Part shown: positions 45,633 through 50,649 of the stretch, one piece after another | How positions within the stretch are numbered: the first letter of the stretch is position 1 | How the letters are laid out: each line of letters begins with the position of its first letter | From: Candidatus Zixiibacteriota bacterium | GTDB taxonomy: Bacteria; Zixibacteria; MSB-5A5; WJJR01; JAJRUJ01 | Assembly: GCA_020051695.1 (NCBI GenBank) | Contig: JAGVQM010000029.1 | Location: forward strand, 1 to 53,648 | DNA length: 53,648 nt | Direction: 5' to 3' | Program-made: the position numbers and the translations under genes | Notes under the pieces: model-generated | The model's database searches: none | Seen by the model: only the letters and a program-made list of their open reading frames with translations | Told to the model about the DNA's origin: nothing

Positions 45633-47738
45633 CTACCCCTTGCTGACAAAAAACATATGCGAATCACCGGGCCGGATCGGGAGGGACAACCCGGCGGCCA
45701 ATTCTGCCTGGGCGACCTTGATTTCCTGCTCGGTGTAAATGTCCATCATTTTGAGGCGTTTGGACTTAATTCCTGCCGCAGCCAGGTCCGCCCATACAAT
45801 CACCGGGCGGGCGTCTGTTGAATCATCCTGCCAATCGGCAATATGGGCGGAATTCTCGATGATATACAACAATCCGCATTTGTCACTAGTGTGCAGAACC
45901 ACACTTACCGCGCTGTCGGGTGAGCCGACCAGGGGCTTGAGTTGGTGGCTGGGCCATAATGATGAGAAAAACTGCCCATGTGAGGGGTCCCCGGAGGACG
46001 CAGGATCAAAAGTCAACATGTGCCAGAGACCCTGGCCCAGTTTGCCGACTGTGCCATAGATTTTTGCCCCCGATTTGACCAGCGCTTTGGCCCGCGTGGG
46101 CAAGCGGCGAATGTTACCATACACCTGCGAGACAAACGGTCCGGCAGGAGTATCCAACACGCAAATCCGGTAATCCGGCGTGGTCCGCACACCGAGGGCT
46201 TTGGCCAGGATATCGCAGGGTTCCATGTTATCGTCGAACCGCGGCATCAAGCCATAAAACACCATTCCCACTCCGCCCCGCAACAATTCGACCAAGGTGG
46301 TTTGGGCCTCAGCCGACATATATTCGGCGAGCGGCACAATCAAGACCTTATAGTTGCCCAACGTTTCGGGTACGGTCAGGTCCCAAATCCGATAATCAAA
46401 GCCGCACCGCATCAGGTCGCGGCCAATAGCTTCAAAACCGTGCCCAACCAGATCGGGCAAATATGAGAATGGCCCACTCCGCCCCAGAACCATGCCGCGC
46501 AGGTAGGGCCGATAACGCAGCAGACAAATCGAGGCGAAATGACGCATTTTCTCGAATTCGATTTTAGCCAATTGAAAATTCACCCGGCGGATGATTTCAT
46601 ATGACGGGCCGATCGCGCCCGATTCGGAGAGGGCCGCACCATACCAGCGGTCCCGGCCGACAAACATACTGAAATTCATGCCCTTGACCCCGGAAGCCAG
46701 TGCGGCGGTCAATTGCCGTTTAACTTCGCGCTCGGTAATCGGCCGGAATTTTTCCGAAACATCGGGGTTGGGCGAGGCCCGCCCCACTCCAAAGCTGGAA
46801 ACAAATCCCATCTCCTGGCCATCGGAGATCGATCGTCCCCGGTCCATTATTTTATCCAGCGGCGAATCCAGGGAGATATTGGTCGTGAAAATCGTCCGTT
46901 CAGCGGTACGGGCATCGGCCAAATCCGGGAAATTATATCCGCCGTTCCACGCGCACGCGCGGGAAAACATCGCCGACATCTCCGCGCCCGAAAGCAGCTC
47001 GGCGATGGAATCGGCATAGCGGTTGACCAAATGTTCGCGGAATGCAATCCAATCCAGATGCGGCACCACCTGCGCCGGGTCTTTGGCCTCGAATTCCCGC
47101 GGCGGGATGACTTCCGCGAAATCCTTGTATTTTGTCTTGTAAATTTTATTCAGTTGTTCAATGGACGCGTGTTTCACTTCCAGAAATTTGGGGAACAGAC
47201 TGCGGACGACATATTCATTGTAGTCACCGGAGTAGGGGTCGAAATTATGACAAAACGACGGTTCATGGTCGATTTCAATCAGGAACACCGGGCCGCGCGG
47301 GTAGATGTAATTTTTCACAACTTCGGAAAAGACGGAAAAATAATGGCGCAGCAGGATTTGAAAACGAGTATGCAGATATGACGGCGTCAGCCCCCCGATC
47401 GCTCCGACATCGGCTTTGGCGGCCAGCGGTTCACCGTCTTTATTTTTGGCGGCCGTCTCCGGGTGCCGAAAAACGAAATCGGGGATCCCGCCATTGTCCC
47501 ACTGGGCCATAATCCACGGCCCCGGCTTGAGAATTATCTTAAACCCAAACTCCCGCGAAAGCTCCAAAAAAACGACCAGGTCTTTGGCTGGGTCCGATCG
47601 GCCCGAAAAATCGAATTCCCCCTGGCGCGGCTCGTGCAGGTTCCAGGGAACGGCAGTTGAGATAATGCGGAAGCCCGCCTTGCGGATGCGTTCAAAGCAA
47701 ATTGACCAGTATCGCTTGGACACGCGGAAATAGTGCAT
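45633..47738 (-). CDS. GH35/GH42-like beta-galactosidase-type glycosidase
   Basis: At least 701 aa. The TIM-barrel start (HYFRVSKRYWSICFERIRKA, STAVPWNLHEPRQGEFDFSG, ILKPGPWIMAQWDNGGIPDF) is typical of GH35; the acid/base region appears as LIEIDHEPSF. A GH42-like trimerisation (amidotransferase-like) domain follows (YKVLIVPLAEYMSAEAQTTL). No signal peptide is visible. ATG 47738 is the first canonical start, but it cuts beta-strand 1: the frame continues upstream without a stop to about 47850 and encodes the conserved lead-in VIGKEEYAPFAAE. No ATG, GTG or TTG exists there; AAGGAGG at 47851-47857 points to AUA 47843 or AUU 47840. True substrate is unknown. Confidence 0.8.
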   Translation of the reverse strand: MHYFRVSKRYWSICFERIRKAGFRIISTAVPWNLHEPRQGEFDFSGRSDPAKDLVVFLELSREFGFKIILKPGPWIMAQWDNGGIPDFVFRHPETAAKNKDGEPLAAKADVGAIGGLTPSYLHTRFQILLRHYFSVFSEVVKNYIYPRGPVFLIEIDHEPSFCHNFDPYSGDYNEYVVRSLFPKFLEVKHASIEQLNKIYKTKYKDFAEVIPPREFEAKDPAQVVPHLDWIAFREHLVNRYADSIAELLSGAEMSAMFSRACAWNGGYNFPDLADARTAERTIFTTNISLDSPLDKIMDRGRSISDGQEMGFVSSFGVGRASPNPDVSEKFRPITEREVKRQLTAALASGVKGMNFSMFVGRDRWYGAALSESGAIGPSYEIIRRVNFQLAKIEFEKMRHFASICLLRYRPYLRGMVLGRSGPFSYLPDLVGHGFEAIGRDLMRCGFDYRIWDLTVPETLGNYKVLIVPLAEYMSAEAQTTLVELLRGGVGMVFYGLMPRFDDNMEPCDILAKALGVRTTPDYRICVLDTPAGPFVSQVYGNIRRLPTRAKALVKSGAKIYGTVGKLGQGLWHMLTFDPASSGDPSHGQFFSSLWPSHQLKPLVGSPDSAVSVVLHTSDKCGLLYIIENSAHIADWQDDSTDARPVIVWADLAAAGIKSKRLKMMDIYTEQEIKVAQAELAAGLSLPIRPGDSHMFFVSKG

Positions 47739-47837
47739 TTCCGCGGCAAAAGGCGCATATTCTTCCTTGCCGATGACGAACTTATTATCGACAATCTTAA
47801 GTGCGGTCCGCGAACTCTTTGCGCTACCAGCTGTTAC

Positions 47838-47857
47838 AATTATGGCGACGCCTCCTT
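47838..47857 (-). promoter_or_regulatory. Strong RBS before AUA/AUU of the glycosidase
   Basis: AAGGAGG on the minus strand (47851-47857) sits 7 nt before AUA (47841-47843) and 10 nt before AUU (47838-47840), in frame with the glycosidase and 35 codons ahead of its first ATG. No better start codon exists in this open stretch. A sequence error or a non-canonical initiation codon explains it. Confidence 0.55.
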
Positions 47858-48013
47858 GGCGAAATTACTCGAACCTGCCCCAAAATCAACTAAGCAAGTA
47901 TTAAACTCTTTAGAGGGGGTGAAGTCAAGATATTTCTTCTAACCTATTGGGAGATAATGAGGAACAAAACCGGAGGGCAAAATCGCGCCAAATCGCGGGG
48001 CGGTCGGCTTCTT

Positions 48014-48958
48014 TTACTTCAGTAGGAGCATTTTTCGCATTTGCTGGTGGTCTCCGGCAGCGAGGCGATAAAAATAGATCCCCGAGCCAACCCGTTCACC
48101 CCGATAGTCTTCGCCATTCCAAAATGCCTGTTGCCGACCCGCATTCTTTGGGCCGTCGACAAGCGTGATGACGCTCCGCCCCAGAATGTCAAAGACCTCC
48201 AAACGGACAATTCCCGGTTGCGGCAGGGAAAACTCAATGTGTGTGCCGGCGTTGAACGGATTGGGGTAGTTTTGCGCCAGCTCGAATTCCAGCGGGATTG
48301 CATCATCCGCGTCCAGAATACCCCCGGGTGATGCAATAGTAATGATACCTTTGGTAAAGACAACTTCATCGGTTCCACTGGGGCCATGGTCAACCGGGGG
48401 CAACCCGCCGTCAATCAAGCTCACGGTTTGAAGGGCGGTCGTGAAGCAGGAGGTATCGATTTCGAATTTTCCGGGTTGCTCAGTAACCGCAAATGTGATC
48501 GTAACAATCGCCCGCCCCAGAGGTTGGGGGGCGGCGCCCAGCAATGCCCCAAGCGCATTGATCGCCAAATGGTCCGGCGATACCCCTTCATAGTTATCAT
48601 GATAAGCAGATACACAACGATTACCTTGCGGGATCCCGGCAATCGGCCTAACCTCCTCAACCATATACGCCCATGGCGTAACCCAATTCCAGGTCACTCC
48701 CTGTGCATACGGATGGTTTGAGGCATTGGCTCCGGTGTCATAGGGTAGCGGACCGGCCCAAAACGAGCCGGGATCAATCTCGCGCACGACCAGAGGGACG
48801 GTCAAGCCCAGCAACGTATTATCCCAGGCCACTGTGAAATCCACGGTCACGTCGGTTTGCCCCGGCTCGACGGTCCTGCTGGCCACATCGACGCGCCATT
48901 CGGCCCCGGCGGGAACGGCCAGAAAAACGAATACGACAAACAATCCGACGCGCCGCAC
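48014..48958 (-). CDS. Secreted protein with C-terminal sorting/FlgD-like Ig domain (paralog 1)
   Basis: About 314 aa from GTG 48958, which has GGGAG 8 nt upstream and directly begins a signal peptide (RRVGLFVVFVFLAVPAGAEW). ATG 49024 would add 22 residues. The N-terminal beta-sandwich (RTVEPGQTDVTVDFTVAWDN, LTVPLVVREIDPGSFW, LPYDTG) is shared with the two paralogs upstream. The domain ends VDHGPSGTDEVVFTKGIITI. A C-terminal YPNPFN-type domain ([20 protein letters not shown] ... [13 protein letters not shown]) closes the protein. Unlike the other two it has no thrombospondin type 3 repeats. Likely exported and anchored by the C-terminal domain. Confidence 0.82.
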   Translation of the reverse strand: MRRVGLFVVFVFLAVPAGAEWRVDVASRTVEPGQTDVTVDFTVAWDNTLLGLTVPLVVREIDPGSFWAGPLPYDTGANASNHPYAQGVTWNWVTPWAYMVEEVRPIAGIPQGNRCVSAYHDNYEGVSPDHLAINALGALLGAAPQPLGRAIVTITFAVTEQPGKFEIDTSCFTTALQTVSLIDGGLPPVDHGPSGTDEVVFTKGIITIASPGGILDADDAIPLEFELAQNYPNPFNAGTHIEFSLPQPGIVRLEVFDILGRSVITLVDGPKNAGRQQAFWNGEDYRGERVGSGIYFYRLAAGDHQQMRKMLLLK

Positions 48959-49105
48959 AACAGAAACTCCCGGCCCCCGGCGGCTGCCGGACAATCCTGT
49001 CTTAGTCACCCCACCTCTTTGCATAATGGCTGCTCGATGATGAGACTTCCCTGCCGCTGGTATACGATTAAATGTACGAGCGAGAAATTTGACTGGCGCC
49101 CCGAA

Positions 49106-50287
49106 TTATTTCATCAGAACCATTTTCTTCATCTCGGAAAAATCCGACGTGGTCAGTCGATAGAAATAGATCCCCGAGGCCACATTCTTACCGTCCCGGT
49201 CTGTGCCGTCCCAGACGGCCTGCTGCTGTCCGGCCGCGCGATATCCCTCGGCCAGAGTGGCCACATTTCGCCCAAGAATATCGTATACATCGAGTTGAAC
49301 ATGACCTCCTCTCGACAGAACAAATTCAATCAAAGTGCGGGCATTAAATGGATTCGGGTAGTTTTGCAGCAGCGCATATTTTTCGGGCACCGCGTCCTGC
49401 TGCTCGAAAATGGCGTTGGTATCGCAATCGGACGGATTCTGCTCCGGATTATACAGATCCGGGCAGACATCGCAAGAATCCCCGAACAGGTCGCCGTCGC
49501 TGTCTTCCTGTAGTGGATTCGGCGTCAGCAGACAATTATCGCAGGCATCGCCGACACTATCCGCATCCGTATCCTCCTGGCTAATGTTGTAGATAAGCGG
49601 ACAATTATCCTGGTCATCGGGGAAGCCGTCTTCATCGGTGTCTTTCCAGAGAGTGACGACACCTTTATTAAAAACAGTCTCTCCGGTCCCCTTGGGGCCG
49701 TGATCGACGGCGATCATGGCATTATCGATCATGTAAATAGTGCTGTTGGATGTCGACACACACGCGGTGTCGAACTCGAACCGCCCGGCGGTGTTGGTCA
49801 CATCGAAGGTTAATGTGAGAACCACTCGGCCGGCGGGTTGGGCGTCAGCGTAAAGCCCCGAACTGGAAGCGCTTACCACCAACTGATCGGGGGGCTGGCC
49901 GTTATAAAAGCTGTCGGCCGGCGGATTGCACAGAAAGTCGAATGGAATTTTTAAGGCCGGCCGGACCTCCTCATTAAGATTGGCCCACGGTGCGGCCCAG
50001 TTCCAGGCGGCACCGTATTGGTAGGGATGCCAAAACCCGTTCCCGCCGGTATCGTAGGGCAAATTGCCCGTCCAGAAGGCGCCAGAATCAATCTGTCTGA
50101 CGATTAGCGGCAAAGAGAAGCTGGCAAGCGGAATATCCCAGTATACGGTGATATCCAGGGTCACCCCGGTCTGGCCGGCGTCCACGGTCTTGGTTTCAAT
50201 ATCAATGCGCCACTCGGCCCGGCCCGGCGCCGCACAGCATGCCATCAGTACCATCATGATTGCGGTGCAATACAACATCGCTTTCAT
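49106..50287 (-). CDS. Secreted protein with thrombospondin type 3 repeats and C-terminal sorting domain (paralog 2)
   Basis: About 393 aa from ATG 50287, which follows AAGGAG with 7-nt spacing; the open frame to 50383 adds unrelated residues. Order: signal peptide ([20 protein letters not shown]), the family N-terminal beta-sandwich ([40 protein letters not shown]), then three to four calcium-binding thrombospondin type 3 repeats ([45 protein letters not shown]) and the YPNPFN-type sorting domain ending [20 protein letters not shown]. No catalytic motif. A surface, possibly calcium-stabilised, adhesin or matrix protein is likely. Confidence 0.85.
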
Positions 50288-50649
50288 TCCCATTCTCCTT
50301 GCCCCTGCGGACGTGCGGCCCGCCCCTTGTTTCGGCTGCGACGCGTCGTGCCAGCGAATCGGCGCGGCATCAGCCGTTGTCATGCGGCAAGATACCGCAT
50401 TTCTTCACCGGTGCGTATGACAAAATCCCCCTGATATTTTACCCCAAAAACCGCGAATTATCTGAATCGCCAGCTGATAGATCAGCGCATTGCCAAGCAT
50501 GTGTGGAAAATTCGAGACCGCCCATCCCACCCCAAAGCATTCAACCGCCTGCCACAATTAATTGACCTCTGCCTTTAAACGTCAGACGCGTTCACCCTGA
50601 CGGCTGTTTCAGATCAACTAATTGCTCTGTTGCGATTGCGCCTCCCCGG

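Follow-up and report, generated by a model that had tools for sequence, protein, structure and literature searches.

A GH35-type glycosidase on the minus strand of the window, i.e., the whole stretch of 53,648 nt of Candidatus Zixiibacteriota DNA that was analyzed, is most probably translated from an AUA codon at position 47843 by fMet-tRNA that is anchored by a perfect Shine-Dalgarno (SD) sequence, with reduced output. The nearest orthologue is found in JAJRUJ010000093.1 (Candidatus Zixiibacteriota bacterium isolate Dive96_bin10.176, here G001), a genome of the same family but of another genus, and it has the same ATA and the same SD. As judged from this comparison, the arrangement is very likely to be real biology and not an assembly error. 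The positions of the gene and of its start region are listed in Table 1.

The minus-strand frame is open from position 47864 to the stop TAG at 45635–45633 and is closed on its 5' side by an in-frame TAA. After this TAA the minus strand reads TTT CGC CAA GGA GGC GTC GCC ATA ATT GTA ACA GCT. No ATG, GTG or TTG is present in the frame from 47864 downward to the ATG at 47738. The segment 5' of that ATG encodes ...RTALKIVDNKFVIGKEEYAPFAAE, which is conserved among orthologues, and the 35 codons that precede it represent the conserved lead-in ALKIVDNKFVIGKEEYAPFAAE, also present in orthologues. The original prediction had placed the GH35 lead-in upstream of the first ATG, in an open frame without ATG, GTG or TTG, with AAGGAGG 7 nt before AUA and 10 nt before AUU. 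A direct reading of the letters confirms the frame and both gaps, and the orthologues bear out the lead-in.

Table 1. Features of the glycosidase gene and its start region, in window positions
Feature	Positions	Strand	Basis or remark
GH35-type glycosidase coding sequence from AUA	45633..47843	-	736 aa + stop TAG; open frame, Pfam, orthologues
AUA start codon (proposed)	47841..47843	-	Sole start-like codon common to both family members at usual SD spacing
Perfect Shine-Dalgarno AAGGAGG	47851..47857	-	Complementary to 16S 3' end; kept in G001
ATT, codon 2, rejected as start	47838..47840	-	GCT in G001
In-frame TAA, bars starts farther upstream	47865..47867	-	Sequence
First ATG, internal, codon 36	47736..47738	-	Automatic gene finder's choice; without SD; after conserved lead-in
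Likely sigma-70-type promoter	47900..47928	-	Inferred; read by eye and same place in G001

By sequence comparison the protein is a GH35-type, GlmA-like glycosidase. It matches Pfam Glyco_hydro_35 (1.6e-29, 103.9 bits against a curated cut-off of 27) and, in addition, Glyco_hydro_42 (GH42, 2e-15) and GLMA_2nd, the GlmA second domain (2e-13). The best solved relative is the exo-beta-D-glucosaminidase 5gsm (E 1.9e-51), and GH35 beta-galactosidases are also near. The window glycosidase resembles GlmA (PDB 5gsm) and the GH35 beta-galactosidases in the catalytic-domain stretch and in the GLMA-like second domain, and the Glu of the motif DHEPS (Glu201 of the window protein) aligns with DEPS of 5gsm. 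In contrast to these enzymes, the putative acid/base Glu is not kept in every class orthologue of the window gene. It is maintained in the order and in some other relatives; several class orthologues differ, e.g., with Tyr or Gly at this position. Catalysis may thus have been lost or changed in some orthologues of this widely conserved gene. Of 58 relative genomes, 51 contain an orthologue, in most cases a single copy. A comparison of the window with G001 gives a dN of 0.24, a dS of 2.2 and a dN/dS of ~0.11, values that clearly point to purifying selection on the glycosidase.

The window genome and G001 are the two genomes of the family in the collections, and conservation within the family is therefore a matter of this one comparison. 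The two glycosidases share 67% protein identity and 67% nucleotide identity. At the homologous codon G001 reads AAGGAGG-GCCATC-ATA-GCT-GTA-ACA, i.e., with 6 nt between the SD and ATA; codon 2 is ATT in the window vs GCT in G001 and codon 3 (GUA) is common to both. ATA represents 9.7% of the Ile codons in a 436 kb sample of the window genome. The glycosidase has two other ATA codons, and G001 keeps neither of them. Codons are identical at 20 of 27 synonymous sites in codons 2–35 and at 202 of 448 in the rest of the gene (Fisher p = 0.005). Such high codon identity fits a region where translation starts; it may also be a small local effect. Because codon positions 1 and 3 are equally conserved in codons 2–35 (0.74 each, window vs G001), the first dozen codons by themselves lack a clear coding signature.

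Start positions in the orthologues were counted in codons from the KFVIG anchor. A total of 39 orthologues matched the anchor, 37 of them outside the family, and nine further orthologue fragments without an anchor match were left out of the scoring. In the window genome and in G001 the ATA is at -20. All 37 orthologues outside the family have ATG, TTG or GTG before the anchor, at positions other than that of the ATA: the six order relatives (six of six) display ATG at -28, i.e., 8 codons upstream of the family ATA, nearly all class relatives have ATG (once TTG) at -7, and one orthologue has GTG at -23. A canonical start situated solely after the lead-in was not found among these 37. The original prediction had proposed a comparison with relatives for a normal start; in the relatives neither ATG nor GTG occurs at the AUA position.

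A likely promoter upstream of the SD consists of TTGACT (47928–47923) and TTTAAT (47905–47900), separated by 17 nt. The transcript is predicted to start at ~47893, with a leader of ~50 nt. A consensus promoter scanner did not report it, as the second base of the -10 element must be A under its rule. G001 displays TTGACT-17-TAAGAT at the matching place; TTGACT aligns between both sequences and the leaders are ~40–50 nt. No stable structure was detected in the 5' leader (z = 0.02 and 0.57). In G001 the in-frame canonical codons upstream of the ATA are just two TTGs, at -32 and -47, both without an SD. The TTG at -47 is part of the TTGACT -35 hexamer itself, and a gene finder that uses the longest TTG starts the G001 glycosidase in its own -35 hexamer and produces a wrong 766-residue protein (L003:1390–1504). 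The other TTG, 12 codons upstream of the ATA, was rejected as a start: it has no SD, it is near the predicted transcript start, and the window has a stop there. The locus appears to be syntenic between the window and G001 because the upstream genes are alike, with a Por/FlgD-tail type protein also upstream in G001. The window has two genes for FlgD-Ig/Por secretion-tail proteins upstream (positions 48014–49024 and 49106–50383, minus strand), one of which has thrombospondin type 3 repeats.

Assembly error was the main alternative in the original prediction. In this reading an assembly or sequencing error has either replaced a true ATG or, through an indel, concealed a normal start farther upstream. 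A single-base change would give ATG, and G001 is a metagenome-assembled genome, as the window genome probably is also. The same error would be needed twice, however, as separate assemblies of two genera agree on ATA and the SD. Since G001 carries the same ATA and AAGGAGG, this explanation is very unlikely. The upstream frames differ between the window genome and G001, which leaves a hidden upstream start common to both without support. A frameshift or alternative-frame start was also considered and rejected. G001 has an out-of-frame ATG just 5' of the SD, but this frame ends after ~21 codons, and the window genome has no equivalent of it; whichever frame is read, it has no ATG close to the SD. 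The gene could instead be decaying, with its start codon lost and its product hardly or no longer made. The start is indeed shifted relative to the order relatives, whose ATG sits 8 codons upstream, but in both genera the frame runs intact through 736 codons behind a perfect SD and the dN/dS is low (~0.11), and decay is hardly credible.

Translation from another codon of the same frame was also weighed. AUU at 47840 (codon 2) is 10 nt from the SD, and rsfS in the window genome uses AUU 8 nt from its SD. AUU is a classical rare start, as in infC and pcnB. Codon 2 is GCU in G001, however, and AUU is excluded as the start for this reason; where the original prediction left the choice between AUA and AUU, AUA is the one shared with G001. 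GUA at 47837 (codon 3) is common to both genomes, but it is a poorer near-cognate start, and its distance of 12–13 nt to the SD exceeds the 5–8 observed for the sampled full-SD genes. A start at AUU or GUA in place of AUA is thus improbable, and several near-cognate codons may be used side by side. The ATG at 47738 is the first canonical start and the gene finder's pick, and would produce a 701-residue form. Such a start has a very low probability: this ATG has no SD, it would drop the conserved lead-in (the orthologues start at a distance of 7 to 28 codons from the KFVIG anchor), and it would leave a strong conserved SD without a start codon.

The 3' end of the 16S rRNA of the window genome is GGATCACCTCCTTTCT, with an intact anti-SD complementary to AAGGAGG. 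An altered initiator tRNA anticodon is excluded in that the stem-loop, GGGCTCATAACCC, reads CAU, and loss of IF3 is likewise excluded, as the IF3 gene is present in the window genome. With the anti-SD and initiator stem-loop normal and IF3 encoded, no special decoding is needed. For initiation at AUA, the perfect 7-base SD would anchor the 30S subunit on the near-cognate codon, where the ordinary initiator fMet-tRNA (CAU) would be accepted despite the third-position mismatch. IF3 would discriminate against the CAU–AUA pair, and the glycosidase yield is expected to lie roughly between one tenth and one third of the AUG level and to respond to the level of IF3. This lower output and IF3 sensitivity are suggested by analogy to known systems. 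The AUA start probably keeps the glycosidase scarce, and selection would maintain the low dosage.

The pattern AAGGAGG-N5-8-ATA occurs at 7 sites in the whole 3.53 Mb genome (30 sites for the reversed control pattern), and of these 7 the glycosidase site alone is followed by a long conserved frame that lacks a normal start. The broader pattern AAGGAGG-N5-8-ATH has 37 genome sites and three credible starts, glycosidase (ATA), infC (ATC) and rsfS (ATT); infC and rsfS are the sole gene starts with AAGGAGG before AUY. The same three ATH-start genes occur in G001. Whole-genome scans for AAGGAGG or AGGAGG before ATA revealed no second convincing AUA-start gene (for AGGAGG, among the matches listed, 30 of 38). 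A gene survey of the 436 kb sample accepted 289 coding ORFs and shows the glycosidase as the sole ORF without a usable canonical start; two others that were flagged have an ATG slightly inward. The glycosidase and rsfS are the only convincing AUH starts in this sample, in which the full AAGGAGG precedes 5 of 228 canonical starts, at a spacing of 5–8 for the full-SD genes. AUH starts are rare but not unique in the window genome.

The infC gene (C32:127531) starts with AUC behind AAGGAGG in this family, and AUC or AUU is likely in most order relatives. The rsfS gene (Iojap, ribosomal silencing factor; C14:196909) starts with AUU in the window genome and in G001. Eight order genomes were read, and the rsfS start is ATT in 4 and ATA in 4, preceded by AAGGAGG or a near match. 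The AUH assignment is firm because ATG or TTG occupies the same codon in other class families. The rsfS loci L126, L132, L135 and L147 of family f4 seem to use AUA too. To our knowledge an AUH start is not classical for rsfS, and a paper search found nothing on it. The order-wide AUH start of rsfS may be a more interesting lead than the glycosidase.

Starts at AUU, AUC or AUA in infC serve the autoregulation of IF3 in E. coli, Streptomyces and S. aureus, and the infC starts of this family and order show this classical layout. The glycosidase is similar to infC in having an AUH start that IF3 would discriminate against, and infC of the window genome has its own AUH start behind the same SD motif. 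However, infC encodes IF3 and its start closes a feedback loop, and the glycosidase has no such loop. The AUU start of E. coli pcnB is a non-canonical start that holds a product other than that of infC low. Streptomyces sigR has a GTC start, which IF3 represses (PMC5472188). These two cases are similar to the glycosidase in that a non-canonical start is present on a gene other than infC and the product is kept low, in sigR via IF3, but the codon and the gene are different, and the low-dosage function demonstrated for them is only presumed for the glycosidase.

The closest parallel in codon is in Staphylococcus aureus, where the AUA starts of infC, ccpN and citZ are known from ribosome profiling (retapamulin) and/or luciferase reporters; those of ccpN and citZ have ~10% of the activity of AUG, with up to 30% for ccpN in rich medium, and cvfC1 starts at AUU (PMC13009471). 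The likeness extends to the extended SDs of infC and ccpN, to the strong conservation of the ccpN start and to citZ, which encodes a central metabolic enzyme. The original prediction regarded such a start as unusual for a metabolic gene, which is fair, but citZ and ccpN provide a precedent (PMC13009471). The S. aureus starts were shown by experiment, whereas the window glycosidase, from another phylum and another gene family, is known from its sequence.

The window glycosidase adds to a known but rare kind of gene, with conserved AUA starts and extended SDs as in S. aureus. Gene finders overlook natural AUA starts, which are very rare. In the present case gene finders would shorten the enzyme to 701 residues. 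A common response of the glycosidase, infC and rsfS to IF3 is possible. It is a tentative and rather doubtful proposal that infC (AUC), rsfS (AUU/AUA) and the GH35 gene (AUA, in this family) represent an IF3-sensitive translational regulon in this order of Zixibacteria. If true, the level of IF3 or the growth state would be linked to a carbohydrate enzyme, to ribosome silencing and to the fidelity of initiation. A conserved AUA case in an uncultured phylum, beside infC and rsfS with similar starts in the same genomes, implies that genes other than infC also use AUH starts, and the three genes would provide a concrete set for testing IF3-dependent start selection.
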